A stretch of DNA of 64,000 bases, from assembly GCA_030737835.1 (NCBI GenBank), contig JAUJYN010000012.1, positions 6,119,943-6,183,942 of the forward strand. The letters run 5' to 3'. Source of the stretch: Acorus gramineus. Taxonomy: Eukaryota; Streptophyta; Magnoliopsida; Acorales; Acoraceae. Shown here one piece after another: positions 6,161 to 58,908 of the stretch (positions are counted from its first letter, which is position 1; each line of letters starts with the position of its first letter). Below the pieces are notes generated by a model. That model was not told the origin of the DNA. It ran no database searches and saw only the letters and a list, made by a program, of their open reading frames with translations. The position numbers were made by a program, and so were the translations under genes.

Positions 6161-7400
6161 TTATTTACTCCTGCAGCAACACTGAGCTCCCTTATACCAT
6201 TTCGTGCAGGATCCTCCACTGTAGCCTTTCTGCTTGCATCTTTCATCACATGGGTTGACATAGAGGAGACAAGATCCAATACAAGGCACGTCTGGATCGT
6301 TCAAAGCATTTGGTGGATGGTGAGGAGAATTAGCCTTCAACATGATATTTTTAGGGAGATTATCATCCATTCTATCATCTTCATTTTCAAAAGCATGGCC
6401 TATCAATTTGAAATCAATGGAAATGTTAGTCCAACCAAAATGAAGCTCATTCTGGTATGAACAACTTGTATTGCGTGGTTTCATACTTTGATTCTCATAT
6501 ACTTTTGAAAGTAAATTATTAGAAGGGAAAGAAATTATTTCCATGTTAACGAAAATTGAACATTTACAACATTGACAAACACAAATAATTCTTAAATTAA
6601 CATTGTGGTTTAAATCCCCAATTCTATGCGTAGTGTCTGTGAGTGATTCTGCCTATCTGGGGTTTTCCCAACTGTTGTTGTTCTGTACACTTCACGAAAG
6701 CAAAAGCTCTAATGTGCAAGTGTCTTGAGTACTATAATTGACCTTCTTGGGATTTACATCTACTTTATTATTTTTCATCAACAAATAAGAGCAGTTGAGG
6801 GTCAAAAATTTCACCTAATTAGGCTCGTCTAGCATATTTTTTCATAGTAGCAAGATTGCTACAACTAACTACGGGCTTGTTCGGGCATGCGTTTGATGGG
6901 CGGTAGTGTGGTGGACACTGACAAATGTGAACGCACAAAACAAATGGGTTTTGACGTCTGTATTGATAAAACTCTTGTTGCATATGGGTTTCCATCAATT
7001 TTTTCAGCCTTCTGATCCGCAAAAAACAACTATTTGTGCAACGCTCTCCCCCCCCCCCCCCCCCCCCTCCGGCATGGCGGACGCCCGCGAGTGCATATGC
7101 CCAAGCGGTCCCTAAATTGAGTTCGCCACCATAGAACTCATCTTTCTCCCCCAAATGGAGATTTTAGTAAATAACCAAATATAACACTTGAACTTCAATT
7201 TCCAATAACTTTTTTATCTTTCAACTAAAAATTTAGACATAAAAAAATTAAATTTTGACTGCAGATTAATTGTCTTGAGGGGAATATAGTTCAAAAACAA
7301 ACATAGCAAATTAAAAACACAAAGAAACATATAAACAATACTCACAGAAACTTGAAAGGATGGAAGCAATCAGAATAACCGCAACTAATTTTCTCTCCAT
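6161..7400 (-). CDS. CRP1: secreted cysteine-rich (defensin-like) protein, two exons
   Basis: Exons are 7346-7400 and 6161-6399, giving 97 aa. Exon 1 encodes MERKLVAVILIASILSSF, a signal peptide. The donor is GTGAGT at 7345-7340 and the acceptor is TAG at 6402-6400; the intron is phase 1 and 946 bp. Exon 2 begins CHAFENEDD, an acidic pro-region, followed by IMLKANSPH, a motif shared with three paralogues in this window. The C-terminal domain has eight cysteines spaced C-x3-C-x6-C-x3-C-x9-C-x8-CCC. The Cx3C...GxC...CxC arrangement fits a CS-alpha-beta fold with a GxC-type gamma-core, so a defensin-like role (antimicrobial or signalling) is inferred, not shown. The longest ORF starts at an internal Met inside the intron; I chose the exon-1 start because all five copies share it. 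A MITE sits in the intron. Confidence 0.78.
6873..7112. mobile_element. PIF/Harbinger-like MITE in the CRP1 intron
   Basis: A 240-bp element with imperfect terminal inverted repeats: GGGCTTGTTCGGGCATGCG at the left and, reversed, GGGACCGCTTGGGCATATGC at the right. The flanking 3-mers are TAC and TAA, close to the TWA target duplication of PIF/Harbinger elements but with one mismatch. It contains a C homopolymer at about 7049-7067. It has no coding capacity. Confidence 0.5.
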
Positions 7401-7448
7401 GATGATATTGAAAGCCAAATTTTCATATATCATAGTTTTAAAACAGAT

Positions 7449-7458
7449 CTTTTATAGC
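7449..7458 (-). promoter_or_regulatory. TATA box of CRP1
   Basis: GCTATAAAAG on the minus strand, about 50 bp before the exon-1 ATG. The identical decamer stands at the matching position before CRP2 and CRP4, which supports both the promoter and the exon-1 start. Confidence 0.6.
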
Positions 7459-8257
7459 ATAAAGGAACAAAATATTTTACCTAATTATGGTATGTAAGAT
7501 ATGATTTACTTTGTGATTTTAATTTTCTTTCCCATTCACATTTGCGTAAATCTTCTCACTTTATTACGTTGGAGATCTTTTATCTTTTTAGTATTTATGC
7601 AAAAGAAGAGAATCTTGTACTTTAAAAAAATACTGATCACAATATCACTATCTTACTGATTGCATCTTTTGTTAAAGAAATTAATCCATGGCCTTTTATT
7701 CATTTGAATAGTTATTATAATAGTCTTTCCCCACATGTGCATGTAAATAAAATTGAAAAAGTTACCCACAACCAATAATAAATCATTAAGGATGTTTTAC
7801 TAAAATGTGATTTTTAGGGGTTTATATAAAAAAGAACATTAAGATTTGGTGGATATGAATGATATTATCTAAATTTATACATTGATACAAAAAATGAAAA
7901 ATTAAAATATTAACAAAATTCTTTAAAAATTCATAAATTTTTAAGTATAACTCTTATTGGTGTGATCAATAGCTCATTATAAATCTCTCTTCGATATATA
8001 CTTATGACTATGAAATAGAGTTTTCCCACAAATGATTATTTCATGATGAAAAAGTAAGATCGAACATTGAAACTCATGTTTGACTCAAAATTAGTTATTT
8101 ATCACTATATTTCATTGTTATCTCAATCTAAATCTAATAAAATTTAATAACAACAAAAAGAATATGATGGAGTAGTATGATCACCACCATTCATTAACAT
8201 ATTTTTAAAAAATTATTAGTGTGACGAAGTTGAAAACACTTTTGATTAGATAAATGT
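7459..8257. other. AT-rich spacer upstream of CRP1
   Basis: No gene, RNA or clear mobile element was recognised. The stretch is strongly AT-rich and presumably contains the distal CRP1 promoter. Confidence 0.4.
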
Positions 8258-9063
8258 GTTGAATCCCACATTGAAAAATGAGCTATAAAATGTTGGTATA
8301 CAAAAAAATTTAATATAATTATCAAATAACATCTACTCCTAGCATGTGATGTGCATGTGTAGACATTTCCTTATTTGTTTAGCATCTCAGTGACTTCCAA
8401 ATTTTTATTGGGATTGTCAAATAAAAGTTTCCTTACATCATGACCATCTAGATGACCATAGGCTATATTGAACAATGCCACTTGTGTGATTGATGCAACA
8501 TGACGCATGACAGATTTGGAAAGAAATCATTGTAGAATATTTGATTTTAAATTTGTCATTAAAATAATGTTTTATGAGATATTGTCATTTATTGATGAAT
8601 CTCAATATTTAAAATCATAATAATCACTTTTAGTGGTGAGCTATAATTTTAGGAATTTTAGAATCTTATATTTTATTTTATTATATTTTAATAATTGTCA
8701 TTGTAATTGTGTGATCTTTACTATTTTTAGTAGAGTTATAATTGACATTATGAGTATGTATTTAATATTTATGGCCTATATAAGGAGTTCCATGATCTTT
8801 TGTAAGGAACAATTTTTAATCAATCAATAAAATTATATTTTCTCTTGTTATTTTCTTTGTTGATTCAAGGAGTTTATGAGATCTCAAAGCTTGTTGGATC
8901 TTTTTATTCGTTTCACGCTGCGTTAGGTGGTATCAGAACATGTTTTGGGATCAGTATGAGAATATTAAATAAAAAATATTTTTAGAATGATATGAAAGGA
9001 TATTTTAATCTATATACATATGCTATTCTAAGATCCCTTGAAATGACTATTGAAGCTTATGTT
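8258..9063 (+). mobile_element. LTR retrotransposon remnant: LTR, primer-binding site and start of the interior
   Basis: The LTR opens near TGTTGAATCCCACATTG (about 8258) and carries a TATA-like stretch GGCCTATATAAGGAG near 8773. It is followed by TGGTATCAGAACATG at about 8927, which matches the initiator-tRNA-Met primer-binding site of many plant Copia elements. The interior is cut at 9063 by insertion of LINE-C and resumes at 12344. No gag or pol reading survives. The exact LTR start is uncertain. Confidence 0.5.
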
Positions 9064-12000
9064 TTTCATTTTTTTGAAAATGATAATGGGTGGATCTGCC
9101 ACTTCTTTGATTATAAAAGAAATACAGTTCCAAAAAAACAAAATACAAAGGAAGAGCAAAGATAAGAGATCTAATTAATGCCTAATTAGGAGATCTAAAT
9201 AAGGCATTCGTCGGATCTCCATCCTTTCTTCCTACGGTGCGATGATTAGTGAATTCCTCTCCACCTAGACTAAGTTAGCCCCAGCACAAAGACATCCCCA
9301 AACCAGGATGTTCCTCTTGACACCCTCCCAAACTCCTTCCGCCGATACCATACTACCGCTGATGATCTTATCATTTTGACCAATCCAGATGGCCCACATA
9401 ACTGTTGGAAACAATGATTGTATAACTTTGCTGCGTAAACTCCAATCGTCACGCCAAGATAGCCTTTGCCCCATTTCCCACAAGTGATCAATAGTAGTAA
9501 TCGGGCTCCACCTGCACCCCAAAGAAGAGCCAAGGCCGTGTCACACCTCCTTCCTAATCACACGTTCACAAAAATAGATGTTGAGCAATTTCCATGCATG
9601 CCATCTTCACATAGAGCACAAGACAGAGAGTCTCCAGGTCACCAAATTGCTCGATAAGCTCACATAAGGAGTCTCTCATTATAAGCTAACCACAAAAAAA
9701 AGGCACCTTCAAGGGGATCATGCATCTTCAAATTTGAGAAGCCTTTCACACCACTCCACCATTGTATGGTTTGTCTCTATCCCACCACGAGTAAGCTAAT
9801 TTAATTGAGAAACCTGTCAAGGGGAAGAGCCACTCCGGATCATCTTCAGCTTCATTGTCAACCCTGAAGTTGGTTAAAACATAGAATAGCTGAGTATAGT
9901 GTAGGAATTCCTCCTCAGATAGGAGGCGTCTAAGCTCAAACACTTAGCACACGGAGAACCTCTAGAAATCCCACACAAAACCCTCCTTGTTGCATGACGC
10001 CTCAAATATATCCGGATAAACCTCCATTAGAGGACCTAAGCCACACCAATGAAAAGTCCATAAGCATATCCTATCACCCCGCCCAAGCCTCCATTTAACA
10101 CTTGATATAATCGAGCCACCCAACCTTGAGATGGCCTTCCAAACAAAAGATGAACATGAACTTGGCTTAAGGAGTTGTAAACTTCGTCGACCACCCCTCC
10201 CTTGCAATCCCACCATTACAACATTCTTCTAGACAGCAAGTCTGTCTTATCCAAATTTCCAAACCCATTTTGATAAAAGCGCTTTATTGAACTCCTGAAG
10301 ATCCCGGTATTTATGCTATCTAAGTTCAAGATCCCGAGGACTATACTCCTTCACTTGGATAAGCTAGGCATTTGCTGTGGTGTGGCCCAGGGCATGGCAC
10401 ACAAAGAGTACATCTCGTTAGCTGGGAAACAGTTTGTACTAGCAAAGGCAAAGGGGGTCTTGGTGTTCTTTATCGGAATTTGACAACACTGACTAAAGAA
10501 GCACGAGTCTACTGCCCAAGCTTAAAAGTCTCCTAGACCATCCCTCCAACCTCTATTCGAACCGATGCACCAGGGGTTCCAAATCATTCAAACACAAAGA
10601 TCTAAGACTCAATAGCAATCCCAAATAGTGTGTTGGGAAGGATTCCTTTGAGAGTGACACGCAAGTTGCTATTTGGTTGAGCTCCACCTCATTAATGTTA
10701 ATCCCGAATAATGTAGACTTCCTCTGATTGATAGCAAGCTCCGACAGCCACCCAAACACCGACACCACAAGCAAAACCCCATCTATGAAACACGGTTCTC
10801 CTCTGAACAAGATCATAGTATCGTCTACATATAAAACATGGGATAACGTACAGGTTGACCTGCCACATTGTAGGCCTTGAACCCATCCATTAGCTTCCAC
10901 ACGGGCAAGCATTCTACTAAGCACATTAGCGACAACAATAAATAGAAATGGAGATATAGGGTCCCCTTGCTAAAGACCCCTCTTGATAGGAAAGAAACCA
11001 CAGAGAGACCCATTTATAAGGACCGAAGCCCAAGCCATCGATATGCAATCAAAGATCATGCGCAACCATCTATCACCGAATCCATGGCAGGCCAATATAT
11101 GTCGCAAGAAAGACCAATCCACAAGATCATATGCTTTTTGAAAGTCCAGTTTAAGCAAAAAGCCTTTCCTTCAAAGAAGATGTGTCCCAGATATTGCCTC
11201 CTGGACAGCTAGGAAGCCTTCTTGGAGGGATCTCCCTGGAACGAAAGTGGTTTGGTTGACCTCAACTAGCAAACCAATCACTTCCTTCAGCCGATTAGCA
11301 AGGACTTTGGAAATGATCTTGTAGCAGGCATTTATCAAACTAATCGGCCCCCCGCCTTCTTAAGAATTAGCACAATAAAAGTCACGTTCATGCATTCAAC
11401 CCCTTGATTTCTTGTTTGGAATTCTGCACACTTGTATGATATCAAATTTAACAATCTCCCAAAACTCTTGAAAGAATCTGGTGTTGAAGTTGTCGGGACG
11501 AGGAGCCTTGTCTCTGTCCGACTCAGCCATTCTACTGATAAACTTGGCAGGTCGTCGTCTACCCATTCCACACGCTTTCCATGGGGAGCCTTAAGCTTTT
11601 CCTGAAAGTGTGATATGAACGCGTCTTGAATACCTACATCAGATCAAATAGTAGTCTCCCCGACTAGCAGACTCTATTTTATTTGCACGTCATCTTTGAT
11701 TTGCTACTTTATGGAAAGAGGCGGTGTCGTTATCACCTTCTTTCGACCATAACACCCTTGACCGCAATCACCACTTCTCTCCTAAACCAAGAATTTGCTG
11801 CAAAGACACCTTAAGCCTGATCCGATCCTCATGTTCTGACTTCCCCATCGGGCCGCTTTCTTCTAATTCATCAAGCATATTTATATCAAGAGCTATGGAA
11901 GCCTCTCGCTCCACCTGTCTTTTCTTTGCCTCCCGACTCCACCCCTTTAAAACATGTTTGAGCCTCTTGAGCTTTAAGGCTATCCTCTTGGCCCTAGAAA

Positions 12001-12343: not shown

Positions 12344-12362
12344 GACTATTGAAGCTTATGTT

Positions 12363-13939: not shown

Positions 13940-14813
13940 GGGTGCGTCTATCCCCACCAAACGTTTTTCTTACCCCACCAATAAAAAAAAAAAACGGTGT
14001 TTGGCTGTTCCCACCAATCCAGGTCGACCGAATTTGGTCGCCATTTCAGGTTTTGGGCGACCGGACTTGGTCGCCATTTCAGGTTTTAGGCGACTGGACT
14101 TGATCGCAATTTAAGGCTTTGGGCTACTGTAATTGGTCGAACAGGGTTCAAAACTATATCTACCTATTTTTTGTAAACAAATAACTTTTTGGGTTTATCC
14201 ATCATAGTCTACATTTATTCTTTTATCCAAACAACAGCTAAGGGGCCGAAAAAAATGTAAGTAGATATACTTTCAATCAATTCAAAATTTTATAGAAAAA
14301 TATCTTATTAGACAAATATATATCATTTTTAAGTTTTGTTTGAATTCGTAGTTAAGAGGATTCTTCGTTTGAAAACAAAAAAAAACCTATAAGTTGATCC
14401 AAACACATTATATATTTGGCTTTTGAAAATTAGTCCGTCACTTATGTAAAAAAAAATTGTTCTTATATTCTACATTTAAGAATAATAATTGATTCTTCTT
14501 ACATTACAACTCAAACTTGGAGTGGTATGAAGGATTCAAGGAAGATATACGTCATGAGATTATGTTTTCAAGAAAAAAAATTATAAACTTTATTACAAAT
14601 CATGTTCGACCAAGTTCGGTCGTCCAAAACCTGAAATGACGATCAAGTCCGATCATCCAAAACCTGAAATAACGATCAAGTCCGATCGTCGAAAACCTGA
14701 AGTGGCGACCAAATCTGGTCGACCTGGCCGGATCGGTAGGAAAAGATAAAACACCGATTTTTTTTTCTCGATTGGTGGGGTAAGAAAAATGTTTAGTGGG
14801 GATAGCCGTGCCC
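13940..14813. mobile_element. MULE-1: non-autonomous Mutator-like element, 874 bp
   Basis: The ends are GGGTGCGTCTATCCCCACC and, reversed, GGGCACGGCTATCCCCACT. Long inverted arms of about 200 bp contain a tandem unit of about 33 bp built around CGACCGGACTTGGTCGCC-TTTCAGGTTTTGGG. Flanks are A/T-rich (aaaaatttt and aattttttt) and give only a partial 9-bp match. It is the opposite-orientation sister of MULE-2, whose 9-bp target duplication is perfect. There is no transposase gene. Confidence 0.75.
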
Positions 14814-15990: not shown

Positions 15991-15999
15991 CAAGTTCGT

Positions 16000-17975
16000 T
16001 CTAGAGCTGATTAGGGAGAAATAGGTTCCCCCCTCATAGATTGATAAGGAACAAGGATGTCAACTGGGGAGTTCCCTTACTTATGTATATGTATGGCCTT
16101 CCAGTCATTCAAATGATCAAGATATTGATGAATGGTTCGGATAGTTCTAATGGCAATCCAAGGAGTAGTACTTCTGCCATTCAACCAGACCAGGCAGTGG
16201 TTGAATCTGATCCAATCCATAATTTGTGAGCCTGAATAGAACTGCCTAGCAATACACCTTGCTCAATCGCTTTTAGCTCAAGGAGATTGATGGTGGGAAG
16301 ATCATGTCTGCTCGTCAAGTCGGTAAAATAATCAGCATTGGAGTTTCTAAAGAGCGCCCCATAGCCCTCCCTCCCCCGTCCCCCGGTCATCTGCAAGTGA
16401 ACCATCCGTGTTGAGTTTCAGCCAGCCATCAACTGGGCACAGGCAAGTTACAATTGAGTTGGAATGCTCCTTCACAAATGTTAAAATAGCAAAGGCTTCC
16501 ACAATCTTGGGAATATCTGAGGAGAAAGCAGTCCGAAAGACCCTATTAAGGATCCAAAGCATCATATTTTCCTTGACTCTATGCAAGGTAAGCATTTTAT
16601 GTTAACTTTTTTCAGCGAAGATGAGATTGCTCAGCTCAGTCCAAAGAAATCAGAATGTGGTAGAAGTTATAATATAGCCAAGTTCTTTCTTGAATGGATC
16701 AGTAATAATTGTTGTCATCTAGGCAAGGAAAGGATCAAGCCTTCTGGGGCACTGAGAACGGATGGTGAGATCGTGAAAGAGCTTACTCCAAACAAATCTG
16801 GAGTAAGCGCAGCCCAAGAACAAGTGGTCTGCATCATCAGTCCGGGCACGGCTATCCCCACTAAACATTTTTCTTACCCCACCAATCGAGAAAAAAAATC
16901 GGTGTTTTATCTTTTCCCACCGATCCGGCCAGGTCGACCAGATTTGGTCGCCACTTCAGGTTTTGGACGATCGGACTTGATCGTCATTTCAGATTTTGGG
17001 CGACCGGACTTGGTCGTCATTTCAAGTTTCGGACGACCGAACTTGGTCGAACATGATTTGTAATAAAGTTTATAATTTTTTTTCTTGGAAACATAATCTC
17101 ATGACGTATATCTTCCTTGAATCCTTCATACCACTCCAAGTCTGAGTTGTAATCTAAGAAGAATCAATTATTATTCTTAAATGTAGAATATAAGAATATT
17201 TTTTTTTACATAAGTGACGGACTAATTTTCAAAAGCCAAATATATAATGTGTTTGGATCAACTTATAGGTTTTTTTTTGTTTTCAAACGAAGAATCCTCT
17301 TAACTACGAATTCAAACAAAACTTAAAAATGATATATATTTGTCTAATAAGATATTTTTCTATAAAATTTTGAATTGATTGAAAGTATAGCTACTTACAT
17401 TTTTTTCGGCCCCTTAGCTGTTGTTTAGATAAAAGAATAAATGTAGACTATAGTGGATAAACCCAAAAAGTTACTTGTTTACAAAAAATATGTAGATATA
17501 GTTTTGAACCCTGTTCGACCAATTACAGTAGCCCAAAGCCTTAAATTGCGATCAAGTCCAGTCGCCTAAAACCTGAAATGGCGACCAAGTCCGGTCGCCC
17601 AAAACCTGAAATGGCGACCAATTTCGGTCGATCTGGATTGGTGGGAACAGCCAAACACCGTTTTTTTTTTTTTTTTTTTTGATTGGTGGGGTAAGAAAAA
17701 CGCTTGGTGGGGATAGACGCGCCCCATCAGTCCCTAGCACACACAAAAGACAATTGACAGTTTGAATTAGTTCTCTCCTTTGAATGCAAACCAGTGTTAG
17801 GAGTTTGTTTAAATATGCCTGCCATAAACCATATTTTGAATTTAGGCTATGATACTTCACTGAATGACTACATTTTTTTCTTCTATTTCCAATTTTCTTG
17901 TTCAAGTGAAATCTTTTACATTTCACACTGATCTAGTGTATAGAGGAAGGCGGTGAAACCACATCCAGGTAGTGC
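16000..17975 (-). mobile_element. LINE-D: 3' part of a LINE ORF2 (zf-RVT and RNase H), split by MULE-2
   Basis: On the minus strand the zinc-ribbon region starts near 17830 (NKLLTLVCIQRRELIQ, then LLCVLGTD) and is cut by MULE-2. It resumes at 16843 with DADHLFLGCAYSRFVWSKLF. An RNase H-like domain follows: GWLKLNTDGSLADD at about 16430-16390, then a GALFRNSNADYF stretch and INLLELKAIEQGVLLGSS, ending with LWIGSDSTTAW near 16205. There is a frameshift between the two RNase H segments. The reverse transcriptase is absent, so this is a 5'-truncated copy. Both ends are approximate; no target duplication was found. Confidence 0.8.
16844..17724. mobile_element. MULE-2: non-autonomous Mutator-like element, 881 bp, perfect 9-bp target duplication
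   Basis: It is flanked by catcagtcc at 16835-16843 and 17725-17733. The ends are GGGCACGGCTATCCCCAC and, reversed, GGGCGCGTCTATCCCCACC. It is nearly the reverse complement of MULE-1 over its whole length, including the roughly 33-bp GACC/GGTC-rich tandem units in both arms. It lies between the codons for LLCVLGTD and DADHLF of LINE-D, so it inserted after that LINE. There is no transposase gene. Confidence 0.9.
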
Positions 17976-18272: not shown

Positions 18273-19232
18273 TTATTTTGGACAATCACAGCAACATTCG
18301 ACCCCATGGCCAAATTTAAACCTGCAGTGTCCTCCACTGAAGCCCTTCTTCAGCTTCCTGCATTCCCCGGAACATGTCTTATTTTTGAAGTAGTCGACAA
18401 TGCAGGATCCTCCACACTCTCTGTGACATGATGCTAATGGTGAACTAGTTGGATGTGGTGGCTCATCACCGATCAGTGGTGTTTCGTCACTAGCTAATGG
18501 TTTGTGAGGTGCATTAGCCTTCAACATGGCCTCTTTATGGGGCATCTGCTCCATCCTCTCATGATCTTTGCCTATTGGTATAACAATTGGAGTGTTAGTC
18601 CCAACCAAATGGTAGCTCATTTGAACTGTGTGGTTTAATACATTTATTTTCTATAGTTTAATTCAGAAAATAAAGTATAAAAAGATTTAATAATCATTGT
18701 TAGCATGACCAATTTTATTTCATAAACTTTCGTGGATGGCCATAAATTACTCTCAAAAGTGATAAAATGGCATGCTCTTTTCCATACTAGTTCAAAATCA
18801 ATTTGAATCATCAAATTGATCAAATTTTGGGTCAAATCAAAACCAAATAAGTCCACATTGGTAAAATAATATTTTGTAACTCACACTAATACATATAAAG
18901 GATTCTCGAATTCTCAATTCTGAGTAGTAAAATTGCATCTTCTTATCCTTCACATAAATATATTTTTGTTATGTTCAATCAAGGGATATGAACAGCGGAT
19001 GCCATTTCACACTTCTCAATATCATTCTTATCTTTTGACTGCAAAGTTAAATATACAAATAAATGAAATGTTTACTTCATAGTTAGCTTTAGAAGTACAT
19101 TACATTCCAACAAAAAAAAAACTAATACTAAACAAGATAAATTAAAAACACACACAAAGGAACAAACATACAATACTCACCATAACTGGAAAAGATGGAA
19201 GCAATGAGAATTGCTACAAGTATGTTTCTCAT
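18273..19232 (-). CDS. CRP2: secreted ten-cysteine protein of the same family, two exons
   Basis: Exons are 19181-19232 and 18273-18571, giving 116 aa. Exon 1 encodes MRNILVAILIASIFSSY, a signal peptide nearly identical in core to that of CRP1. The donor is GTGAGT and the acceptor TAG; the phase-1 intron is 609 bp. The junction codon gives Gly where CRP1, CRP3 and CRP4 have Cys. The pro-region carries AMLKANAPH, matching the family motif, then a Pro-rich stretch. The cysteine domain is enlarged: C-x3-C-x3-C-x9-C-x3-C-x11-C-x9-CCC-x-C, ten cysteines, with FSGGHC supplying the GxC element. The two extra cysteines (the first and the last) suggest one more disulfide than in CRP1. It is secreted by inference; its function is unknown. 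The most divergent minus-strand member. Confidence 0.78.
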
Positions 19233-19282
19233 TGTCAACTTTTTGAGAGCTAATTTTTCGTATGTCCTTTGCTTGATAGAGA

Positions 19283-19292
19283 CTTTTATAGC
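19283..19292 (-). promoter_or_regulatory. TATA box of CRP2
   Basis: GCTATAAAAG on the minus strand, about 50 bp before the ATG, the same decamer and spacing as CRP1. Confidence 0.6.
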
Positions 19293-22585: not shown

Positions 22586-22616
22586 TTTACTATCCTTCTA
22601 TTCCAATAACTTTTTA

Positions 22617-23198
22617 ATGAATTGTATTTTTTGGAACGTCCGTGGGATCAACAGTCATGAAAAACAACTGGATGTTAAAAAAAATTTGACGAGACAAGCA
22701 TCTCCGATCATTTGTCTTGTAGAAACGAAGGTGGAAATCCAAAATGCTGAAGTTGTGCGATGAAGAATCCTCCCCCATTTCAAACTTCTTAACTCCTCCC
22801 GAAGTGGTAGGATTTGGTCTATATGGGATCCGTCTGTGGTTGATGTTCGGCTTCTATCTTCCTCCGACGAATTCCAGCACTGCAGAATTATTTCTAAAAA
22901 TCCTTCTCAGCAGGATTACTTTCTTATTATGGTATATGCTTCTAACTCATTCAGTGAACGAGTTACTCTATGGCACGATCTTGAGAACATTGCCTCGTCA
23001 GTTGGAAATCAACATTGGATTGCGGGAGGGGACTTCAATGAAATCCGTCACTTGCATGAAAAAATTGGTGGCAGAGATCCCTTTCCAAGGAGAATCTCTC
23101 GATTCAATGAGTGTATGTCCCATTGTCAATTGCAAGATCTCTGGTCTACTGGCCCACAATTTTCTTGGAACAACAATTTAAAACTAAAGTTGGGATAA
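22617..23198 (+). pseudogene. LINE-B ORF2, endonuclease domain only, 3'-truncated
   Basis: The reading starts with MNCIFWNVRGINSHEKQ and passes CLVETK. It meets one TGA after QNAEVVR (22761-22763) and then continues in the same frame through GGDFNEIRHLHEKIGG and RFNECMSHCQLQDLW to FSWNNN at about 23180. It stops there; reverse transcriptase and everything downstream are missing. Loss of the 3' side is the reverse of usual LINE 5' truncation, so a later deletion or rearrangement at about 23190 is likely. The junction carries small duplications. Confidence 0.8.
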
Positions 23199-23817: not shown

Positions 23818-24975
23818 TTATTTTTTCCTGCAGCAACAGTGAAAACCCCATTTACAGAATCCTTGAATGAAGCCGAGATTGTGGCATCTCAATTGGCATG
23901 GCAGAACATAAATGTCGCAGAGTCCGATGCACACTTGTTGGGCTAACTCAGCTGATATTGGCGACGGTTCGGGATGAGCATTAGCTTTCAACATGTTCTC
24001 TTTATCATGTATATGAACCCTTCCCACTTCTTTGTCAAAAGCATGGCCTACTGGAATAGAATTAATTCAGGTGTTATTCGAAATTAAAACAGAGCACATT
24101 TGAGTAAGAAGAATTAGATTTTCGAATATCTTCACCATTTGGCAATGTTATATGTTATATTATTATAATCATGGTATGAAACTGACTTGATATCTTTATA
24201 TTATTTAACAAATATGTCAAGATTATTTATTATATTAGAATGTCATTTTTTTGTCTAATTAATCCTTATACAGTTGAATTAGAATTCATATGATTTTTTA
24301 TCATCTAATATAGATAAATTGAATCATTACAAAAAGTATTAATAGACACATCCCCCCCCCCCCCCAATCATTTAATTTCTTTTATAATATTGTGAAATGC
24401 TAGCAAAATAGTGTGATCCCATAAAATTTATATATTATTATTTGTCACCCCATAGAAGTGTTTTGGTCATTATGAAAATTGGTTTAAAAGAAAAAATAGA
24501 TTATGTCATATGTCTGTTAAAAGTAGATATGGCTACCATAATTTTATTTTTAAAAAACTTTGAACTAGGTTAGGAAACAAAGAAGACGAAAGTAAAAAAA
24601 AGAGAAAAAAACACGGTGATTCAAAACCCCTACATCTACCCAGTTAGATGAGTTTTTGAAAAATCCAAAGATTTTTATCTAGCAGGCTAACTTATTAAGT
24701 TTACCGAACAAAAAAAAAAAAAAAAATCTTAAATTTCTATATGTAATAACGGGTTAAGCTCACAAGGACAAGTATCAGTACACCCTGCACTGTAGTGTAT
24801 ATATAGTCAAAAAAAAAAAAATACTGCAAAAAAAAAAAAAAATCAAATTTGGACTGCAAAGTTGAATCATGCACAAAACAAATATACTCAGTCACTCACA
24901 TAAACGGGAAGAAAAGATGGAAACAATGAGAATGGCTAAAACTATGCTTCCCTTCGTGAACATACTGAAAGCCAT
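23818..24975 (-). CDS. CRP3: secreted cysteine-rich (defensin-like) protein, two exons
   Basis: Exons are 24900-24975 and 23818-24047, giving 101 aa. Exon 1 encodes a 25-residue signal peptide starting MAFSMFTKGSIVLAILIVSI. Donor GTGAGT, acceptor TAG, phase-1 intron of 852 bp. Exon 2 begins CHAFDKEVG and contains NMLKANAHPEP, the family pro-region motif. The cysteine domain is C-x3-C-x6-C-x3-C-x9-C-x5-CCC, ending RKK. The Cx3Cx9Cx5CxC part has the spacing of classic cis-defensins known from invertebrates and fungi (family knowledge), with one extra Cx3C before it and one extra Cys inside CxC. It is very close to CRP4, and the introns also align, so the two are tandem duplicates. Its TATA box is altered, so expression may be reduced. 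Confidence 0.78.
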
Positions 24976-30329: not shown

Positions 30330-31733
30330 TTATTTTTTCCTGCAGCAACATTGAAAACCCCAGTTACAGGTTCCACCAATGAAGCCAAGAGTTTGGCATC
30401 TCAATTGGCATGGCACAACATAAATGGTGCAGGCTCCGATGCACACCTGGGCTGCCTCTTTGGGACGAGCATTATTAGCCTTCAACATGTTCTCTTCATC
30501 ATGTACGTGAACCTTTCTCACTTCTTTGTCAATTTCATTGTCAAAGGCATGGCCTACTGGAATAGAATTATTTGAGCTGTTAGAACTAAAAACAGAGCTC
30601 ATTTGTGTGTGAACAATTATGTTGTGTGGTTTCATGCTCTGATTTTCGGATATCTTCTCCCTTTCGCAATGCTAATTATATGCTTATTATAATTATGAAA
30701 CTGAAATGATATCTTTATGTTACATGAAGTGTTACACATGGTCATGTCACAGTCTAAAACTCAGACTCCATATATTTTCAGTGTTATTAAAATCATATAT
30801 TTCATCTAATGAAGTATGTTCTTTTATAAAATTTGACATGTATACTCTAATGAATTGAATTTTATCATTTATAAAAAATGTGAAATTTTTTTAATGAGGT
30901 GTATATATCGATATAGTGAGGACATGGGGCTATCAAAGTATAGGATTGTATCTGGGATTATAAAATGAGCAAGTATAACATAACAGAACTCTTATATTAT
31001 CTAACAAGTATGTTAGGATTATTCATTTTGTTAGAATGTCATTTTTTGTTTAACTAGTCCTTAAAAGAGTTGAATGAGAATTCATGTGATTTTTTTATCT
31101 TCTAGTATAGATAAATTAAATATCATTACAAAAGATGAATGAAAAAATAGACGCATTGATCACCCCCATCATTTCTTTTATATTCTTGCAAAATACTAGC
31201 CAAATAGTGTGATCCCGTAAAATTTTATATTATCATTTGTGACGCGCCACAGAAGAGTTTTGGTAATTTTAAAATTTAGTTAAAAAAATAATTTTTATCA
31301 AATGCTAACCAAATATTGTTCTTTTTTTTTTAATAAAAGGATAGATATTGCTATCGCAATTTTATTTCTAAATTCGTATTCTAACTCTAAAAAAGTGAAG
31401 GGAAACAGAGAAGACAAGAGTAGGAGGAGAAAAACTGGAAAAAAAATACAAGGGATCAAAACGCATACATCCATCCAATTAGATGAGTCTTCGAAAAACA
31501 AAGATTGTTATACATCAAGCTAACTTATTAAGTGTACACCAATAATAAAAAAAAACACTTATTAAGTGTACCAAACAAAAAAAAGTAATAAATAAATCTC
31601 CAAATGAAATAACGGGTTAAGCTCATAAGGTTAAGCAGTCGTGTCTCTAAAAATTTTTATAGTTGAGATCATCTTAAAAAAAAAATATTCCATAAAATTT
31701 TAAAAAAATCTACTAATATCATATATTTATCAT

Positions 31734-31805
<72 letters not shown>

Positions 31806-32315
31806 TTAAAATTAAACAACAACTTACATTAATAAAAAATAAACTATCAAATAAAGAAGATGAATAATTTTTAATATATTAAGTACAAAATCTGGGTCGG
31901 GCAGGAATCATTGGCCGGCTGAGTTGCTACAATTGGAAAATGTAACAGTAGTGGTTTGAGTTTTTTTTTTTTTAAATGTGATCACGTTGTACGTGGTGCT
32001 AAGGAAAAGTATTATAAACCATGCACTATACTGTATATATAGTAAAAAAATAAAAAAAAAATCAACTGCCATACCTTCGAGTGTAAATTACTGCAAGAAA
32101 AACAAATCAAATTTAGAATGCAAAAAGTTAAATCTATAAATAGTTCAAGTTCCACTTTCGATATGCTGCCGGAGAAAACAAAACAAAAAAAACAAAAAAA
32201 AACACACACACATAAGAAACTTATACTTCAGTCACTCACAGAAATGGGAGGAAAAGATGTAAACAATGAGAATTGCTAAAACCATGCTTCCCTTCGAAGA
32301 CAGACTGAAAGCCAT
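30330..32315 (-). CDS. CRP4: secreted cysteine-rich (defensin-like) protein, two exons
   Basis: Exons are 32240-32315 and 30330-30553, giving 99 aa. Exon 1 encodes a 25-residue signal peptide starting MAFSLSSKGSMVLAILIVYI. Donor GTGAGT, acceptor TAG, phase-1 intron of 1686 bp. Exon 2 begins CHAFDNEIDKEV and contains NMLKANNARPKE. The cysteine domain is C-x3-C-x6-C-x3-C-x9-C-x5-CCC and ends RKK, as in CRP3; most differences between the two are conservative or lie in the pro-region. The intron has grown relative to CRP3 by A/T-rich sequence, including an (AT)n run. An intact TATA box stands upstream. The longest open frame starts inside the intron at MKPHNIIVH, but paralogue comparison favours the spliced start. 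Confidence 0.78.
31738..31801. repeat. (AT)n microsatellite in the CRP4 intron
   Basis: An uninterrupted at-dinucleotide run of about 60 bp. The matching part of the CRP3 intron lacks it. Confidence 0.9.
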
Positions 32316-32357: not shown

Positions 32358-32367
32358 CTTTTATAGC
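32358..32367 (-). promoter_or_regulatory. TATA box of CRP4
   Basis: GCTATAAAAG on the minus strand, about 43 bp before the ATG; the same decamer as CRP1 and CRP2. Confidence 0.6.
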
Positions 32368-37480: not shown

Positions 37481-37517
37481 CAACGTAGAATCATTGTGCG
37501 TTAAACAGGATTCTTTA

Positions 37518-37560
37518 GTCCCATATCTCTAAAAGACTAAAATGTTCACTTCTTTATAAA
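37518..37560 (+). promoter_or_regulatory. snRNA-type Pol III promoter (USE plus TATA) of ncRNA copy 1
   Basis: GTCCCATATCT (37518-37528) matches the plant Upstream Sequence Element RTCCCACATCG at 9 of 11 positions. TTTATAAA (37553-37560) follows after 24 bp, the short spacing that directs Pol III rather than Pol II in plant snRNA genes (established knowledge). Confidence 0.65.
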
Positions 37561-37582
37561 GATCTCTGGACGCTACTTCTTT

Positions 37583-37740
37583 GGATCGGTTCGCCCTCTC
37601 CAAGTTGGGAGTTATGTCACGTTTTTCCGGCTAAAGCTGGGGTCACTTGGCATTTAGAGTGGAGGGAAATGCGTGAGGCTGGTTTCACAGAGCAGCGAGA
37701 ACCTCCCTCTCTTGACGGTGGAAGGATAACGGGCTGTCCA
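37583..37740 (+). ncRNA. Pol III-type structured RNA, copy 1, unassigned
   Basis: The predicted RNA is 158 nt. It starts at GGATCGG, 23 nt after the TATA box, and ends at GGGCTGTCCA before a T6 run. The 5' GGATCGGTT-GCCC and the 3' GGGCTGTCC can pair to close the molecule, and local hairpins such as CCGGCTAAAGCTGG are visible inside. Copy 2 at 51260-51417 has the same length, about a dozen substitutions and no gaps. I do not recognise the family. RNAs known to use this promoter type in plants are U6, U6atac, U3, MRP and telomerase RNA. The sequence does not look like U6 or U3, and no CTAAACCC template is present, which argues against telomerase RNA. Confidence 0.6.
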
Positions 37741-37749
37741 TTTTTTCTT

Positions 37750-41208: not shown

Positions 41209-41219
41209 TAAAAAAAACA

Positions 41220-41791: not shown

Positions 41792-43488
41792 GGGGATTGA
41801 TTACCTGCGGTCGTGCGGTCCATCGGGTCCATCGTGCGCCCTCTGTTTCGACCGTGCGATCGCTGACCTCGCGATCGCACGGTCCGTGTTATTTTTTTTT
41901 AAAAAAAACAACTCGTCTCTCTCTCTCTCTCTCGATCGAACATCTCTCTCTGTCTCTCTCGATCTCCCTCTCTGTCTCTCTCTCGAACATCTCTCTCTCG
42001 ATCTCTCCCTCTCTCTCTCTCTCGAACATCTCTCTCTCGATCTCCCTCTCTCTCTCTCGATCGAACATCTCTCTCTCGATCTCCTTCTCTCTCTCTCTCG
42101 ATCGAACATCTCTCTCTCTCTCGATCTCCCTCTCTCTCTCTCTTGATCCCCCTCTCAGCGACTCCGACCCCCGACGATTGCGACCCCCGGGCGACTGCGA
42201 GCCGCTCCACAACGATCTGCGATCCCCGACGACTTCGACCCCCTCCACGTCGATCTGCGGACCCCTAACGTCCCCTCCTCACGCCCCCCCCCCTCCGGCA
42301 CTCCTCCTCCTCCTCCTCACGCAGCTCCACCAGACACCAAATACCTTCTCAAGCGGCACCCCGTCCCGACCCAATCTTCGTCACCGTCGCCGTCCTTGCA
42401 CAGTCATCATCACTGTCACCGTCCCCCAAGACATCTGTGTAAGTATTGGGCTTAACTAATTATTTAGGGTTTTTGGTTTTGATTTGTTCTGTTGTTTGAT
42501 TAATTAGGGTTTTCTTCTTGTTTTTTTTTTTTTTTTTGACATTCAAGAGGAACCCAAATCTTGTTGTGATGTGATCATCTTTGAAATCTGAAAAAAGGGA
42601 TTCTGTATGTTTTATGTTTTAATTTTTAAAGGAGTTTGTAAGATCACCAGTTTTGTTTTTTTATGTTTACTTGATGTAGTGAATCAATTCCTTCTCTAAT
42701 CTATGGAGTTCAATAGTGAATAGGAGGTAGTTTTCCATTTGGAGTCCAAAAGTGAATTGAACTTCTGATTTACCTCCTTTGAAGCAGGATTAGCTTGATT
42801 GGGTTTTAGCAGTTCTATATGTGGAGTGTTTTTCCTTGGAGATAATAATTAGAAAAAAATATGGAACAGTCTTCCAGGTTAAAAGATTTCTTGTGGGTTT
42901 GGTGCATTCTTCTGCTTATCATGTGATAGAACATTTTGATGTATGAAATATCATTGTAAGTACATATAGTATTGTAGTGTTGATGGGCTTAAATATCTTT
43001 GTTTCTTTGATGTTAGAAAGGGATAATTATCTTAATCCAAATTAAACCCAGTAGCAATAATAAAGAATTTCATTTATGTATTTTTCCTTTAATTTATGTG
43101 ATATGACTTCCGAATTGGTTCTTGTACTATATTTCCCCAAGATTGTGACAATAAAATAGTTTCATTTTGAATTTTTTTAAAGTTTTTGTATATCGTGCTT
43201 ATTCTTGATAAGACCGTGGGACAATTCTTTCAAAAGATTGGTTTTGTTTCGCGTTTCTAGGAAAATTGTGGGTTCATATTCTATCATAATCGAGTCATAT
43301 TCTATCATAATTGGTTTTGTTATGGTCTAAACAGTCATTAATGAAATAGTAAAACAACCTGATAATTCATTACCAACATTGAAAATGTTGCTTTATATCG
43401 GTGATGAATGAGGTTGATCATGTGGATGTGATATGTTTTGATATGGCTCAGTGTCGGTACCTTAAATATGCCCTCGTCACTCCTGGTC
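41792..43488 (+). repeat. Left inverted arm, with TC tract and 5'-UTR-like exon
   Basis: In order: the GC-rich terminus, a 220-bp ctct/cgatcgaacat tract (41921-42145), a C-rich segment (42146-42438) like a plant 5' untranslated exon, and a donor GTAAGT at 42439. T-rich intron-like sequence then continues to 43488. It pairs with the right arm throughout. Confidence 0.75.
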
Positions 43489-43910
43489 ACCAATAAATTC
43501 ATGTGAAGGTTGAATGCTTTAACACATGCTTTATTCAATGATGTATTGGCATTGGATTCTTATAAAGGAATGTTTTTCCACCTCCTAATATTGTTGCTGA
43601 AAATTCCTTTTCATTGTGAATTAGGCTGTATTGAATATGTGCCCATGTTGGTCACATAGAATGTGTATCAACTATCAAAGTTGAATGCTTATTCTCACTT
43701 TGATAATTTATCAAAGGAGTGCTGGTGTTGGGATTTTTATTAAGGGTAAACCTCACATTCTATTGTTATTGTTGGAAATCTTTTGCTATTAGTTGTTCTC
43801 ATTCTTAACTCCTTTCCTGTAGGTGGATGTCAAAAGAAGCATAGAAGATGGAGAGAAGCGCGTGATTGATCTTTGCTTGTAGTCTAAAAAGTGTTCTTTT
43901 TTGGTGGAAG

Positions 43911-45575: not shown

Positions 45576-46126
45576 CTTAGGGATTTAACACTGTACTATA
45601 CTCACACTGCTTGATACGACAAGAAGAGACTAAATATAAAAAAGCCCACGCTAATTTTTCAAGTGATCAGAAGCCATTAATTAGTACTACTGACTTCTAT
45701 ACCAAATGCACCTGGCATCAGTCCAAGCAGCAACTTAAATATGAAATACATTTCTCACATATTCCTATATAAAACTTGGAAGTCTTATAGTAGTCCTAGC
45801 TATTGGTTGCATTTACCAGCTACACTATTCAGTATGGCTAGCTTTCCTCTTCAAAACTATAATATAGAATCCTTGTATCCCTTCTCTAGCATTATCCCAC
45901 ACTCAACACTCACTTAATGATAAACCATTCTCTTCAACACTCACTTAATTATTGCCCTACCTTCACCTTATGAAATGCTTCAAAGTTTTGAAAATCAGTA
46001 AGTTCAGGTGCTTACAGATGCAAGTTCACACTTGAAGAAAATCATAACATGATTACCACGTTTAAAAGAGATCCTCGATTCGTATTACTACAGTCTAGAG
46101 AGAGAAAAAAAAAGTCTGTTTTAGTT

Positions 46127-47844
46127 GACCAGGAGTGACGAGGGCATATTTAAGGTACCGACACTGAGCCATATCAAAACATATCACATCCACATGATCA
46201 ACCTCATTCATCACCGATATAAAGCAACATTTTCAATGTTGGTAATGAATTATCAGGTTGTCTTACTATTTCATTAATGACTGTTTAGACCATAACAAAA
46301 CCAATTATGATAGAATATGACTCGATTATGATAGAATATGAACCCACAATTTTCCTAGAAATGCGAAACAAAACCAATCTTTTGAAAGAATTGTCCCACG
46401 GTCTTATCAAGAATAAGCACGATATACAAAAACTTTAAAAAAATTCAAAATGAAACTATTTTATTGTCACAATCTTGGGGAAATATAGTACAAGAATCAA
46501 TTCGGAAGTCATATCACATAAATTACAGGAAAAATACATATATGAAATTCTTTATTATTGCTACTGGGTTTAATTTGGATTAAGATAATTATCTCTTTCT
46601 AACATCAAAGCAAAACAAAGATATTTAAGCCCATCAACACTACAATACTATATGTACTTACAATGATATTTCATACATCAAAATGTTCTATCACATGATA
46701 AGCACAAGAATGCACCAAACCCACAAGAAATCTTTTAACCTAGAAGACTGTTCCATATTTTTTTCTAATTATTATCTCCAAGGAAAAACACTCCAAATAT
46801 AGAACTGCTAAAACCCAATCAAGCTAATCCTGCTTCAAAGGAGATAAATCAGAAGTTCAATTCACTTTTGGACTCCAAATGGAAAACTACCTCCTATTCA
46901 CTATTGAACTCCATAGATTAGAGAAGGAATTGATTCACTACATCAAGTAAACATAAAAAAACAAAACTGGTGATCTTACAAACTCCTTTAAAAATTAAAA
47001 CATAAAACATACAGAATCCCTTTTTTCAGATTTCAAAGATGATGCACATCACAACAAGATTTGGGTTCCTCTTGAATGTCAAAAAAAAAAAAAAAACAAG
47101 AAGAAAACCCTAATTAATCAAACAACAGAACAAATCAAAACCAAAAACCCTAAATAATTAGTTAAACCCAATACTTACACAGATGTCTTGGGGGACGGTG
47201 ACAGTGATGATGACTGTGCAAGGACGGCGACGGTGACGAAGATTGGGTCGGGACGGGGTGCCGCTTGAGAAGGTATTTGGTATCTGTTGGAGCTGCGTGA
47301 GGAGGAGGAGGAGGAGTGCCGGAGGGGGGGGGGCGTGAGGAGGGGACGTTAGGGGTCCGCAGATCGACGTGGAGGGGGTCGCAGTCGTCGGGGATCGCAG
47401 ATCGTTGTGGAGCGGCTCGCAGTCGCCGGGGGTCGCAATCGTCGGGGGTCGGAGTCGCTGAGAGGGAGATCGAGAGAGACATGTTCGAGAGAGAGAGAGA
47501 GGGAGATCGAGAGAGACAGAGAGAGATGTTCGATAGAGAGAGAGAGAGAGGGAGATCGAGAGAGAGATGTTCGAGAGAGAGAGAGAGAGGGAGATCGAGA
47601 GAGAGATGTTCGAGAGAGAGAGACAGAGAGGGAGATCGAGAGAGAGATGTTCGATCGAGAGAGAGAGAGAGGGAGATCGAGAGAGACAGAGAGAGATGTT
47701 CGATCGAGAGAGAGAGAGAGACGAGTTGTTTTTTTAAAAAAAAAATAACACGGACCGTGCAATTGCAAGGTCAGCGATCGCACGGTCGAAACAGAGGGCG
47801 CACGATGGACCCCAGGACCGCACGACCGCAGGTAATCAATCCCC
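46127..47844 (-). repeat. Right inverted arm
   Basis: Reverse complement of 41792-43488, with the GA tract at 47466-47720. Differences are small substitutions and microsatellite length changes. Confidence 0.75.
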
Positions 47845-49129: not shown

Positions 49130-49138
49130 TTTCACATT

Positions 49139-51050: not shown

Positions 51051-51194
51051 GAACAAGGGGGAATAACATTATATACATGCTAGATGAATCACACAGAGTC
51101 ACAGAGTACAACATTACATAAAAATATGGAAGCATGAACGCTGTGACCAAAGCCAAACAACATAGAATCATTGTGCTTTAAACAGGATTCTTTA

Positions 51195-51237
51195 GTCCCA
51201 TATCTCTAAAAGACGAAAATGTTCACTTCTTTATAAA
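51195..51237 (+). promoter_or_regulatory. snRNA-type Pol III promoter of ncRNA copy 2
   Basis: USE-like GTCCCATATCT at 51195-51205 and TTTATAAA at 51230-51237, again 24 bp apart, as for copy 1. Confidence 0.65.
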
Positions 51238-51259
51238 GATCTCTGGATGTTATTTGAAT

Positions 51260-51417
51260 GGATCGGTTTGCCCTCTCCAAGTCGGGAGTTATGGCACATG
51301 TTTCCGGCTAACGCTGGGGTCATTTGGCATGTAGAGTGGAGGGTAATGCGTGAGGCTGGTTTCACAGAGCAGCGACTACCTCCCTCTCTTGACGGTGGAA
51401 GGATAACGGGCCGTCCA
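51260..51417 (+). ncRNA. Pol III-type structured RNA, copy 2, unassigned
   Basis: 158 nt from GGATCGG to GGGCCGTCCA, followed by a T7 run. The terminal pairing GGAtCGG / CCGTCC is better here than in copy 1. CCGGCTAACGCTGG forms an internal hairpin. The 5' flank shares more than 100 bp with copy 1, with one insertion of about 40 bp. Equal length and absence of gaps over the transcribed part suggest constraint or a recent duplication. Function unknown. Confidence 0.6.
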
Positions 51418-51424
51418 TTTTTTT

Positions 51425-51643
51425 ATATCCCCGTCTCATGTAATGTTGTCATATAAATCAAATACAAATAATAAGTTGTATACGTGTTGTGTTGTGAATC
51501 AGGAACGGGTCGAGCATCTGACTAGAGTGGAACGACTAGAAGAATGTCACTCAACCTGGCCTGGGATGATTCGACTCCTACCGGGCCCAACTAGGACGAC
51601 CAATCAATAGAGCCTTTTCCACCTAGAAAAGCCTGACCGCGAG
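51425..51643. other. Spacer between ncRNA copy 2 and solo LTR B
   Basis: Nothing recognised. Confidence 0.35.
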
Positions 51644-53105: not shown

Positions 53106-53205
53106 ACGAGTTTTGGCCCTATGCAAGGAGGGCGCTTGGATGTCCACGTCAATAAGATAACAGAAAGCGCAGGGAATATCTTCTGACACGGTGCTGGTCG
53201 GCAAC

Positions 53206-56419: not shown

Positions 56420-57863
56420 ATATCAATGAAAAAAAAAATGCACATAATACAAACCGTATTTGCGTTCACTGTAGAAAGAAAGATTTGATTCACTATGACA
56501 ATAACAGGCGTTTTTTTTTTTTTGGACAATCCAAAATACATTCCTATATACCTATACTTTCTTGCAACTCTAATGAAACATGTACCTCATTAGATAATGC
56601 ATATACTTTTTTCTTATACTTACTAAAAATGGGTTCATTTAACTCGAAATGGATCAATACACTTTTTATTAAAACATGTACCACTTTAAGTAATGTTTAC
56701 TATTTTCAAAAAAATTATAACATGTGGTCTGAGTTTTGGTTCGTAAAGATGAACGAGTGTAACATTTTCCATAATAGAAATGCAAAATCAATGATCCTCT
56801 CTCCTCCCCAATGCTTGTTTATCAAAATGTAACCTCTCATATGGCTTGTTGAGAGGTTCTTGTTTTACAAGGAGATGAGAGGTGTGTGTCAACTTAATCA
56901 AAGCGATCGGTTCACAGATATTGAAAATGTTACACATCAAAAAGTATTTTGAAAACCATTCAACCTACTATTGAAAATGATTTTAGATGAGGAATAATGT
57001 TTTGAAATTATTTTGAAATCAGAAAAATCTTCAAATGGTTTTGAAAAGTGAAGAATTCTTGACTTGCAATGTGTTGCCCTGGACGGGGTCCATCAGGACC
57101 ATCAAAAAGAAGTCTAAACAATTATATTGTAACGCATCATATGGATGATGAAGAACCTTCTGGATGATCTTTCACTTCTGCTAACTGTAATACAAGTCGA
57201 TTTGATTTTGACCTGGACCCTAATGACCATTTAAAAAATCGACGTTTGAAGGACAATGTAACTGACAAAATTTTAGGGAATATTCTTTTCAACTCATTTC
57301 TCTATAATTTAAGTAGTGTTCCCTATGATAATTAGGTTAAAATCTACAAGGAGCTTATTTGTGAGGTTATTCTGATGTTCTCTAATACCACCCATTGAGA
57401 TTTCTTCACTTTTCTCTGGGTAATTGAGGTTTTATTGACATTAAAAAAAGTTATATATTACTTTACTATAAACCTATATGGAGTCATATAACTTTTCCTC
57501 TCTCCGTAAGACTAAAATACAATTAAAAAATAAGATTGTGTTTAACAAAGTTAATTTCCTTGTCACGCATCTATTCTCTATCTTTTTAGAATTTGTAATT
57601 CGAATTCGGTAATGAAATCGAATAACAAATATTTACATTTTTTTCAAAAAAATATTCCTTCTCATGCAATATCTTGTATGATACAAATGGTTACAAACTA
57701 GAAAAAAAAAAAAAAAAATTAGTCAAGGTGATTGAAACCCTACATGCCAGAAAGGGACAATTTGTATATCCCCAGAGACCTATGCAAAAAGTAGTTTGTA
57801 TTAAATGATGAAATCTTACATGCCTAAAAGGATTAATGGTTGGAAAACGTCAGAAGATTAATA
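56420..57863. other. Spacer and CRP5 upstream region
   Basis: AT-rich; no gene, RNA or element boundary recognised. Confidence 0.35.
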
Positions 57864-57872
57864 CTATATAAT
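57864..57872 (+). promoter_or_regulatory. TATA box of CRP5
   Basis: CTATATAAT, about 32 bp before the exon-1 ATG. It differs from the GCTATAAAAG of the minus-strand paralogues. Confidence 0.45.
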
Positions 57873-57903
57873 AAGTGGCCTGATAGTGGACTCAATAATC
57901 ACA

Positions 57904-58908
57904 ATGGCTGAATTCACACTCATGAGGAGAAGCATCTCTGTTCTGCTGTTGGTTCTCATCAACTGTTCCTTGTCAAGCTGTAAGCATTCCTATATATATA
58001 TATATATAGATTAATTTGTTTGACAGAAATAGAGGACTATTATAAATGATTAAGAATTATGTGAAATAATAATTTGTGAACGATTTAGTAGCCACTGTTG
58101 GAAATATGATTACTTTTGGAAAGATTGATAAAAAAAAAATTAAATCATTCACAGAAAAGTAGTTTCCATTCAATTTGAAAGTTGTTAGAATTTCAAATAG
58201 AAATTTGAATATTATGGACATAATCCATTGGAAGATGCGGGTTTAATAAGGTCAGTTATGTAACAAACTAATTTTCTTTTAAATAATAATAAAATATGAG
58301 GGGCAGCCTTATATGCAAACCTTTGCTTTGAATTTTTTAAGATACACGCCGCCTACTGCAATGACGTATGTACCTTTATAAATTAATAAAAAAATCAAAT
58401 TAAATTATATACTCAAATAAATCATTTCACATAAAAAAATATATATATACACATACTTTATTTAACAAAGCACCTCTTGTTAGCATCAGAGGTCTGTAAG
58501 GACTACGTATATCTTTTTATTTTCGTACTTGAATCTCATTTATAGATCATAAGAATCTCATTCATGGATATATCCAAAGAACACAAAAAACATAATACAA
58601 ATGGATAGTTGGATACTGATTCACTATTTCTCATAGGCGATGCTCATGAAGAGAGTGAAGTTCTAGCCCCCATATCAGAGGTAGGAGGCATGATTGAGGG
58701 ACATGTATCTGAAGATAGGCTAATACCTGGTCCAGCAGTAACAGCACTACAAACCATAAGTGACGATGCATGCATTGGAGGCTGTATGTTCCATTTATTC
58801 AGCTGCAAATTAAGATGCATGGTTCATGGATTCCCAACTGGCCACTGCAAGCAGCAACCGACCGGGCAGCTGTGTTGCTGTGTCAATGAAACAAACAAAG
58901 GAAACTAA
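57904..58908 (+). CDS. CRP5: secreted cysteine-rich (defensin-like) protein, two exons
   Basis: Exons are 57904-57979 and 58637-58908, giving 115 aa. Exon 1 encodes a 25-residue signal peptide starting MAEFTLMRRSISVLLLVLIN. The donor is GTAAGC and the acceptor TAG; the phase-1 intron is 657 bp. The junction codon gives Cys, then DAHEESE, matching the C-H-A-F-(D/E) start of exon 2 in CRP1, CRP3 and CRP4. The pro-region is acidic and lacks MLKAN. The cysteine domain is C-x3-C-x6-C-x3-C-x9-C-x8-CCC, identical in spacing to CRP1, with a hydrophilic tail VNETNKGN containing an N-x-T sequon. It is the only family member on the plus strand and lies 25 kb or more from the others. An in-frame ATG upstream in the intron (58609) is not used in this model. 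Confidence 0.75.

Follow-up and report, generated by a model that had tools for sequence, protein, structure and literature searches.

Defensin-like genes of the CCC class with an acidic N-terminal pro-region and a short conserved motif in Acorus gramineus

Precursors of plant defensins are described, in the parts of PMC3922462 and PMC7764197 available to us, as carrying either no propeptide or an acidic C-terminal one. In the class II plant defensins of the NaD1 type a basic defensin domain of the classical eight-cysteine type and an acidic C-terminal propeptide are combined in one precursor, as far as this class is covered by the available text of PMC3922462. A different cysteine arrangement is included in the defensin motif list excerpted from PMC6329339, where C-X{3,21}-C-X{2,12}-C-X{3,4}-C-X{3,15}-C-X{4,23}-CCC stands for the "group 2" defensin-like genes (DEFLs); in that excerpt the first four groups follow motifs credited to Silverstein et al. 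2007, and the CCC motif is assigned to four precursors from wheat, to relatives in Leymus and to a Fusarium protein. Here we describe five genes (g1–g5) in a stretch of 64,000 nucleotides from Acorus gramineus, referred to as the window (contig JAUJYN010000012.1, labelled C32, positions 6119943-6183942, of a 398.6-Mb genome in 137 contigs), together with a sixth gene (g0) on the same contig. For these genes we computed the layout, the class of cysteine pattern, the predicted fold, the pairing of charges and the position of the motif. The CCC cysteine type is already known, and what is unusual is an acidic pro-region with a short conserved motif ahead of the basic domain. In our judgement these are fairly probably DEFL genes of the CCC class, in which an acidic N-terminal leader would guard a basic peptide of the cysteine-stabilised alpha-beta (CS-alpha-beta) type and would be removed by proteolysis.

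The original prediction had placed five two-exon genes in the window, each with a signal-peptide exon, a phase-1 intron and a C-terminal cysteine domain with a CCC triplet, and all five models were rebuilt from the DNA with exactly matching coordinates. All five predicted introns are of phase 1 and bordered by GT-AG; they span 609-1686 nt and follow a first exon of 52-76 nt. Four of the genes lie on the minus strand: g1 (6161..7400; exon 1, signal peptide, 7400-7346; intron 7345-6400; exon 2 6399-6161; 97 amino acids), g2 (18273..19232; exon 1 19232-19181; intron 19180-18572; exon 2 18571-18273; 116 amino acids), g3 (23818..24975; exon 1 24975-24900; intron 24899-24048; exon 2 24047-23818; 101 amino acids) and g4 (30330..32315; exon 1 32315-32240; intron 32239-30554; exon 2 30553-30330; 99 amino acids), whose closest paralogue is g3. 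The divergent member g5 is read from the plus strand (57904..58908; exon 1 57904-57979; intron 57980-58636; exon 2 58637-58908; 115 amino acids). In all five genes the short exon 1 encodes a hydrophobic segment, as judged by eye, and a signal peptide in exon 1 followed by the mature peptide in exon 2 is the usual layout of such plant genes according to the available part of PMC3924332. A tblastn search of the genes against the window returned no further member among the matches listed (g1, g2 and part of g3). As had been noted before, exon 2 starts by completing a cysteine codon in four genes (g1, g3, g4 and g5), and in g2 the residue is Gly. From the intron-split codon onwards the residues read C-H-A in g1, g3 and g4, C-D-A in g5 and C-N-A in g0, so that all of the six C32 genes but g2 have C-x-A. 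Since C-x-A fits the -3,-1 rule of signal peptidase, the Cys at the junction probably occupies position -3 of the cleavage site and would most likely leave with the signal peptide.

Translated in six frames, the window contains the full CCC cysteine pattern five times, each time at one of the genes g1–g5, against 0.0 per shuffle in 100 mononucleotide shuffles of the window. In g1 it takes the form C-x3-C-x6-C-x3-C-x9-C-x8-CCC (6173..6283, minus strand), and g3, g4 and g5 likewise carry the eight-Cys CCC domain. The domain of g2 has ten cysteines, the two extra ones standing as C-x3 before the first common Cys and as CCC-x-C at the end, so that its CCC is not bordered by the stop region alone and the earlier description of the domains as ending in CCC is refined. 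Behind the CCC only three (g1, g3, g4), four (g0, g2) or eight residues (g5) follow; the acidic part is N-terminal, and no acidic C-terminal propeptide as in class II stands after the domain. The earlier view that the CCC ending lies outside the standard plant defensin patterns had to be given up: the CCC motif is a listed DEFL motif in the excerpt of PMC6329339, and all six genes match it, while the classical eight-Cys pattern of plant defensins ending in CXCX{1,6}C is found in none of them. With the wheat and Leymus group 2 DEFLs, compared by description only and as far as the accessible text of PMC6329339 describes them, the C32 genes share the cysteine motif and the arrangement of a signal peptide with one domain. 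The mature peptides of that group are neutral, however (isoelectric point 6.37-7.10), and the same text mentions no acidic N-terminal pro-region, whereas the C32 genes have a basic domain behind 36-76 pro-region residues.

This pairing of charges is found throughout the C32 genes, the pro-region being acidic in all six (net -2 to -13) and the domain basic in all six (+3 to +5). It resembles the combination of a basic domain and an acidic propeptide in class II defensins, from which the C32 genes differ, going by the available text of PMC3922462, in the N-terminal place of the acidic part and in the CCC. As predicted, MLKAN is present in four of the window genes: in g1 (6329..6343, followed by Ser), g2 (18513..18527, followed by Ala), g3 (23980..23994, followed by Ala) and g4 (30474..30488, followed by Asn), all on the minus strand. 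These four are the only occurrences in the six-frame translation of the window, compared with 0.01 per shuffle in the 100 shuffles. At the matching place g0 has MLMDN followed by Gly, so that M-L-x-x-N is common to five of the six C32 genes (g0–g4). By eye, the motif starts 18 (g1), 14 (g2), 17 (g3), 21 (g4) and 17 (g0) residues after the junction codon; this distance is similar but not fixed, which slightly weakens our reading. The linker behind the motif varies from 10 residues in g4 to over 50 in g0 and is proline-rich in g2, where it is long, and in g0. Among the 25 ungapped pro-region columns of g1–g4 five are invariant and all of them are contiguous, an outcome reached in a fraction of 0.00015 of 20,000 column shuffles. 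The exact DNA pattern of MLKAN was found at six places in the genome, three of which are g1, g2 and g4; the matches on contigs C5, C10 and C52 were rejected as family members, as there is no CCC domain at those loci. This count is not a census of the motif, because the AAA codon for Lys in g3 escapes the pattern. The text MLKAN occurred in none of the literature matches listed, and a thin literature search, which reached its sources in part, turned up no plant defensin whose propeptide is both acidic and N-terminal.

With respect to the fold, the family profile matched insect and plant defensins, the best match being the insect antifungal defensins heliomicin and ARD1 (1i2u, 1ozz). AlphaFold2 models were calculated for two of the six genes, g4 and g2, with predicted local distance difference test (pLDDT) values of 82 and 69. 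Both models appear CS-alpha-beta-like and matched defensins and scorpion toxins at modest scores, ARD1 being the best structural match of the g4 model. Taken together, the models, their comparison with the PDB and the profile match suggest a beta-alpha-beta-beta arrangement whose helix carries CxxxC and whose last strand carries CxC, and the family domain thus looks CS-alpha-beta, as the original prediction had proposed. In the alignment heliomicin and ARD1 share the frame CxxxC ... GxC ... CxC with the family; they are insect rather than plant proteins, contain C-W-C and lack counterparts of two cysteines of the family, the first one and the middle one of the CCC. Among the 31 rows listed for the sequence profile, Arabidopsis PDFL2.1 (2mz0) does not appear. 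From the alignment to heliomicin and ARD1 the final CCC may be understood as the usual CxC with a Cys inserted in the middle, and the extra first Cys is its likely partner. Three standard bonds (C2-C5, C3-C6 and C4-C8) would accordingly be accompanied by a fourth one between the first Cys and the middle Cys of the CCC.

Genome searches, which scored only the best candidates and so give a minimum number of CCC genes, revealed g0 58 kb upstream (C32:6062386-6061855, minus strand). This gene has a 103-base intron, and of its three possible start codons the middle one was used for the model. Its pro-region and domain are related to those of g1–g4. Promoter sequence, and partly intron sequence too, is common to g1–g4, and the TATA-like decamer that had been reported for three genes, GCTATAAAAG, indeed occurs three times in the window, upstream of g1 (7449..7458), g2 (19283..19292) and g4 (32358..32367), each on the minus strand, with GCTGTAAAAG at the matching place of g3. 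The promoter of g0 is related to that of g4 (E 1.5e-10); the promoter of g5 gave only a 24-nt match, to g3 (E 0.006), and g5 shares the layout and the domain of g0–g4 but not the motif. Consequently, the proposed family of five members has to be redrawn: g1–g4 and the formerly omitted g0 form a natural group by promoter, pro-region and layout, and g5 is an outlier. Of the broader proposal of a lineage-specific defensin-like family with a pro-region motif, what stands is a family of secreted defensin-like proteins for which a CS-alpha-beta fold is predicted, and the novelty of the CCC and the grouping of five do not. A tree of 20 CCC domains (41 columns) had no starred branch among its 17 inner ones; the six C32 genes need 4 changes on it and formed one group in none of 200 bootstrap trees. 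We therefore do not claim monophyly of the C32 genes from the domain; one origin would be compatible with the firm branches of the tree, and for g0–g4 monophyly rests on the shared promoter sequence and the pro-region.

At least 13 other intact CCC-domain loci were found on contigs C1, C2, C3, C7, C8, C11 and C75. In 12 of them the open frame leaves 33 residues or fewer before the first domain Cys and hence no room for such a pro-region; the thirteenth has 59 residues there, maybe partly intron. M-[LV]-x-x-N upstream of the domain in the domain frame was found in none of the 13. Two degenerate loci, L009 on C8 and L043 on C7, have long pro-regions and domains without the conserved cysteines and are probably decaying copies; one of them, on C8, carries MVNEN upstream of the domain. 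On account of these frame and motif counts we attribute the pro-region to the C32 genes and to two relatives scattered elsewhere rather than to CCC genes generally. At other CCC loci a pro-region may lie on a separate exon; a scan of nine intact loci gave an exon 1 candidate for three (L014, L021, L038) and no candidate for the other six. Besides L009 and L043, the 13 loci exclude a truncated C11 copy without CCC (L044), three weak places with an internal stop (C7, C4, C121), a weak place on C32 that lacks the domain (L030) and five PF24552 matches below the cut-off that have no CCC domain (L034, L036, L037, L039, L040). By eye, three of the latter (L034 on C10, L039 on C50 and L040 on C136) look like classical-type defensins ending in C-x-C-x3-C.

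For disulfide formation, cleavage, targeting and activity we infer the following course. Exon 1 supplies most of the predicted signal peptide, and exon 2 the rest of the cleavage site, the acidic pro-region and the basic cysteine domain. In g0–g4 the acidic N-terminal segment ends in M-L-x-x-N, followed by the linker of variable length, proline-rich in some. By analogy with the C-terminal propeptide of class II, the acidic leader would most likely neutralise and guard the cationic peptide in the secretory pathway and would then be removed by proteolysis. Asparaginyl endopeptidases prefer Asn followed by a small residue; because of this preference the conserved Asn and the small residue behind it are read as a possible cut site, which would suit the vacuolar enzyme, perhaps cutting after the Asn. 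That the segment is a vacuolar sorting signal has almost the same likelihood, and the motif may serve in processing or in sorting. The freed peptide would act as an antimicrobial or signalling defensin.

Several observations weigh against this reading, and they bear on the fold and class as well as on the motif. On the side of the fold, the Foldseek search yielded no match with E <= 0.001 (best 0.33) and also listed kinase chains, at a probability of 0.08 or less; a structural realignment, which only re-scores Foldseek's own candidates, remained below Z = 8 throughout, and g5 alone had no significant match in the PDB (best E 0.089). In the Pfam scan of the five window proteins no family exceeded its cut-off, PF00304 (gamma-thionin) reaching 11.7 bits for g1 and 11.1 for g4 at a gathering score of 25.1 and not being listed for g2, g3 and g5; PF24552 gave nine places over the whole genome, none of them over the cut-off. 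On the side of the motif, g5 has an acidic pro-region but no M-L-x-x-N, the aligner putting MIEGH there, and the invariant run is lost once more genes are included: with g0 three invariant columns remain (longest run two, shuffle fraction 0.23), and with g0 and g5 a single one (shuffle fraction 1.0). Furthermore, of the five codons for MLKAN four do not vary across g1–g4, and at the remaining one g3 has no more than a synonymous difference; since the DNA is nearly identical, recent common descent could explain part of the conservation. It is therefore conceivable, though we hold it only tentatively, that the motif has no function of its own, g0–g4 being duplicates of one gene and the pro-region a tolerated spacer; the promoter and intron sequence common to g1–g4 and the unremarkable run after addition of g0 agree with this. 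The rest of the pro-region has diverged around the contiguous invariant columns of g1–g4, however, g0 keeps M, L and N while K and A are changed, and the degenerate C8 gene still has its MVNEN, all of which argues against a mere spacer. Alternatively, the pro-region may be a sequence-specific vacuolar sorting signal, with a receptor reading M-L-x-x-N and proteolysis being secondary, an idea that we regard as possible but doubtful. A short hydrophobic motif 14-21 residues past the junction codon in an otherwise variable N-terminal propeptide would suit it, and targeting to the vacuole is described for a defensin propeptide in the available text of PMC3922462. The g5 gene lacks such a motif, however. 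Sequence-specific vacuolar sorting signals of the NPIR type are found in the N-terminal propeptides of sporamin and aleurain, and MLKAN is unlike the NPIRL-type consensus.

It also has to be considered whether some of g1–g5 are decaying copies without a working product. The ratio of nonsynonymous to synonymous divergence (dN/dS) of the cysteine domain lies between 0.18 and 0.77 in 12 of the 13 pairs with computable dS (two of 15 pairs were saturated), from which the family appears to be kept as protein, with the caution that most of these dS values are near or above 1. The exception is g3-g4, whose domains differ by dN 0.168 versus dS 0.073 (ratio 2.3; about 1.5 synonymous and 13.5 nonsynonymous changes) at an intron distance of 0.186; no purifying selection is seen on the cysteine domain of this pair, which counts further against our reading. 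Positive selection is not claimed for it (Fisher p 0.28 versus the rest of the gene). Decay would account for the protein divergence of g3 and g4 coming near to the intron distance (dN 0.12-0.17 versus 0.186) and has a parallel in the two relatives on C8 and C7 that lost conserved cysteines, but we consider it very unlikely for g1–g5, as each of them has retained its open frame and splice sites, together with a hydrophobic leader, a TATA-like element and all eight of the common cysteines.

The window contains several further elements. Inverted arms at 13980-14765 and 16891-17675, 95-98% complementary, enclose 2.1 kb, carry 33-base direct repeats and look like a foldback-type transposon. A larger inverted-repeat element spans 41825-43496 and 46119-47812, its longest arm pieces being 97-99% complementary; both arms contain tandem repeats of TCTCTCTCGATC. 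The search for target-site duplications of both elements gave one shared AT-rich 8-mer, outside the arms and not convincing. Two copies at 37481-37746 and 51158-51423, 92% alike, match the plant signal recognition particle (SRP) RNA (RF01855) over 150 and 187 of 305 model positions and are either genes or 7SL-derived pseudogenes. An F-box protein with an F-box-associated domain (FBA) is encoded at 61495-62688 (minus strand). Remains of the long interspersed nuclear element (LINE) type were recognised at 1932-2717 (minus), 10553-10969 (minus) and 22764-23198 (plus) by DUF4283, reverse transcriptase and a sub-threshold endonuclease match.

Returning to the acidic leader that would guard the basic peptide, a more far-reaching form of this explanation, which we consider unlikely as it stands, would see in the C32 genes a third type of plant DEFL precursor: a basic CCC CS-alpha-beta domain would be kept inert by an acidic N-terminal pro-region ending in an M-[LV]-x-x-N site for a vacuolar asparaginyl endopeptidase, this type having arisen when the beginning of exon 2 gained coding sequence and having then spread as a gene cluster. 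If true, the acidic N-terminal pro-region would be a separate solution to the problem of passing a cationic peptide through the cell of the plant itself, and the related genes with and without the pro-region in one genome would provide a ready contrast.

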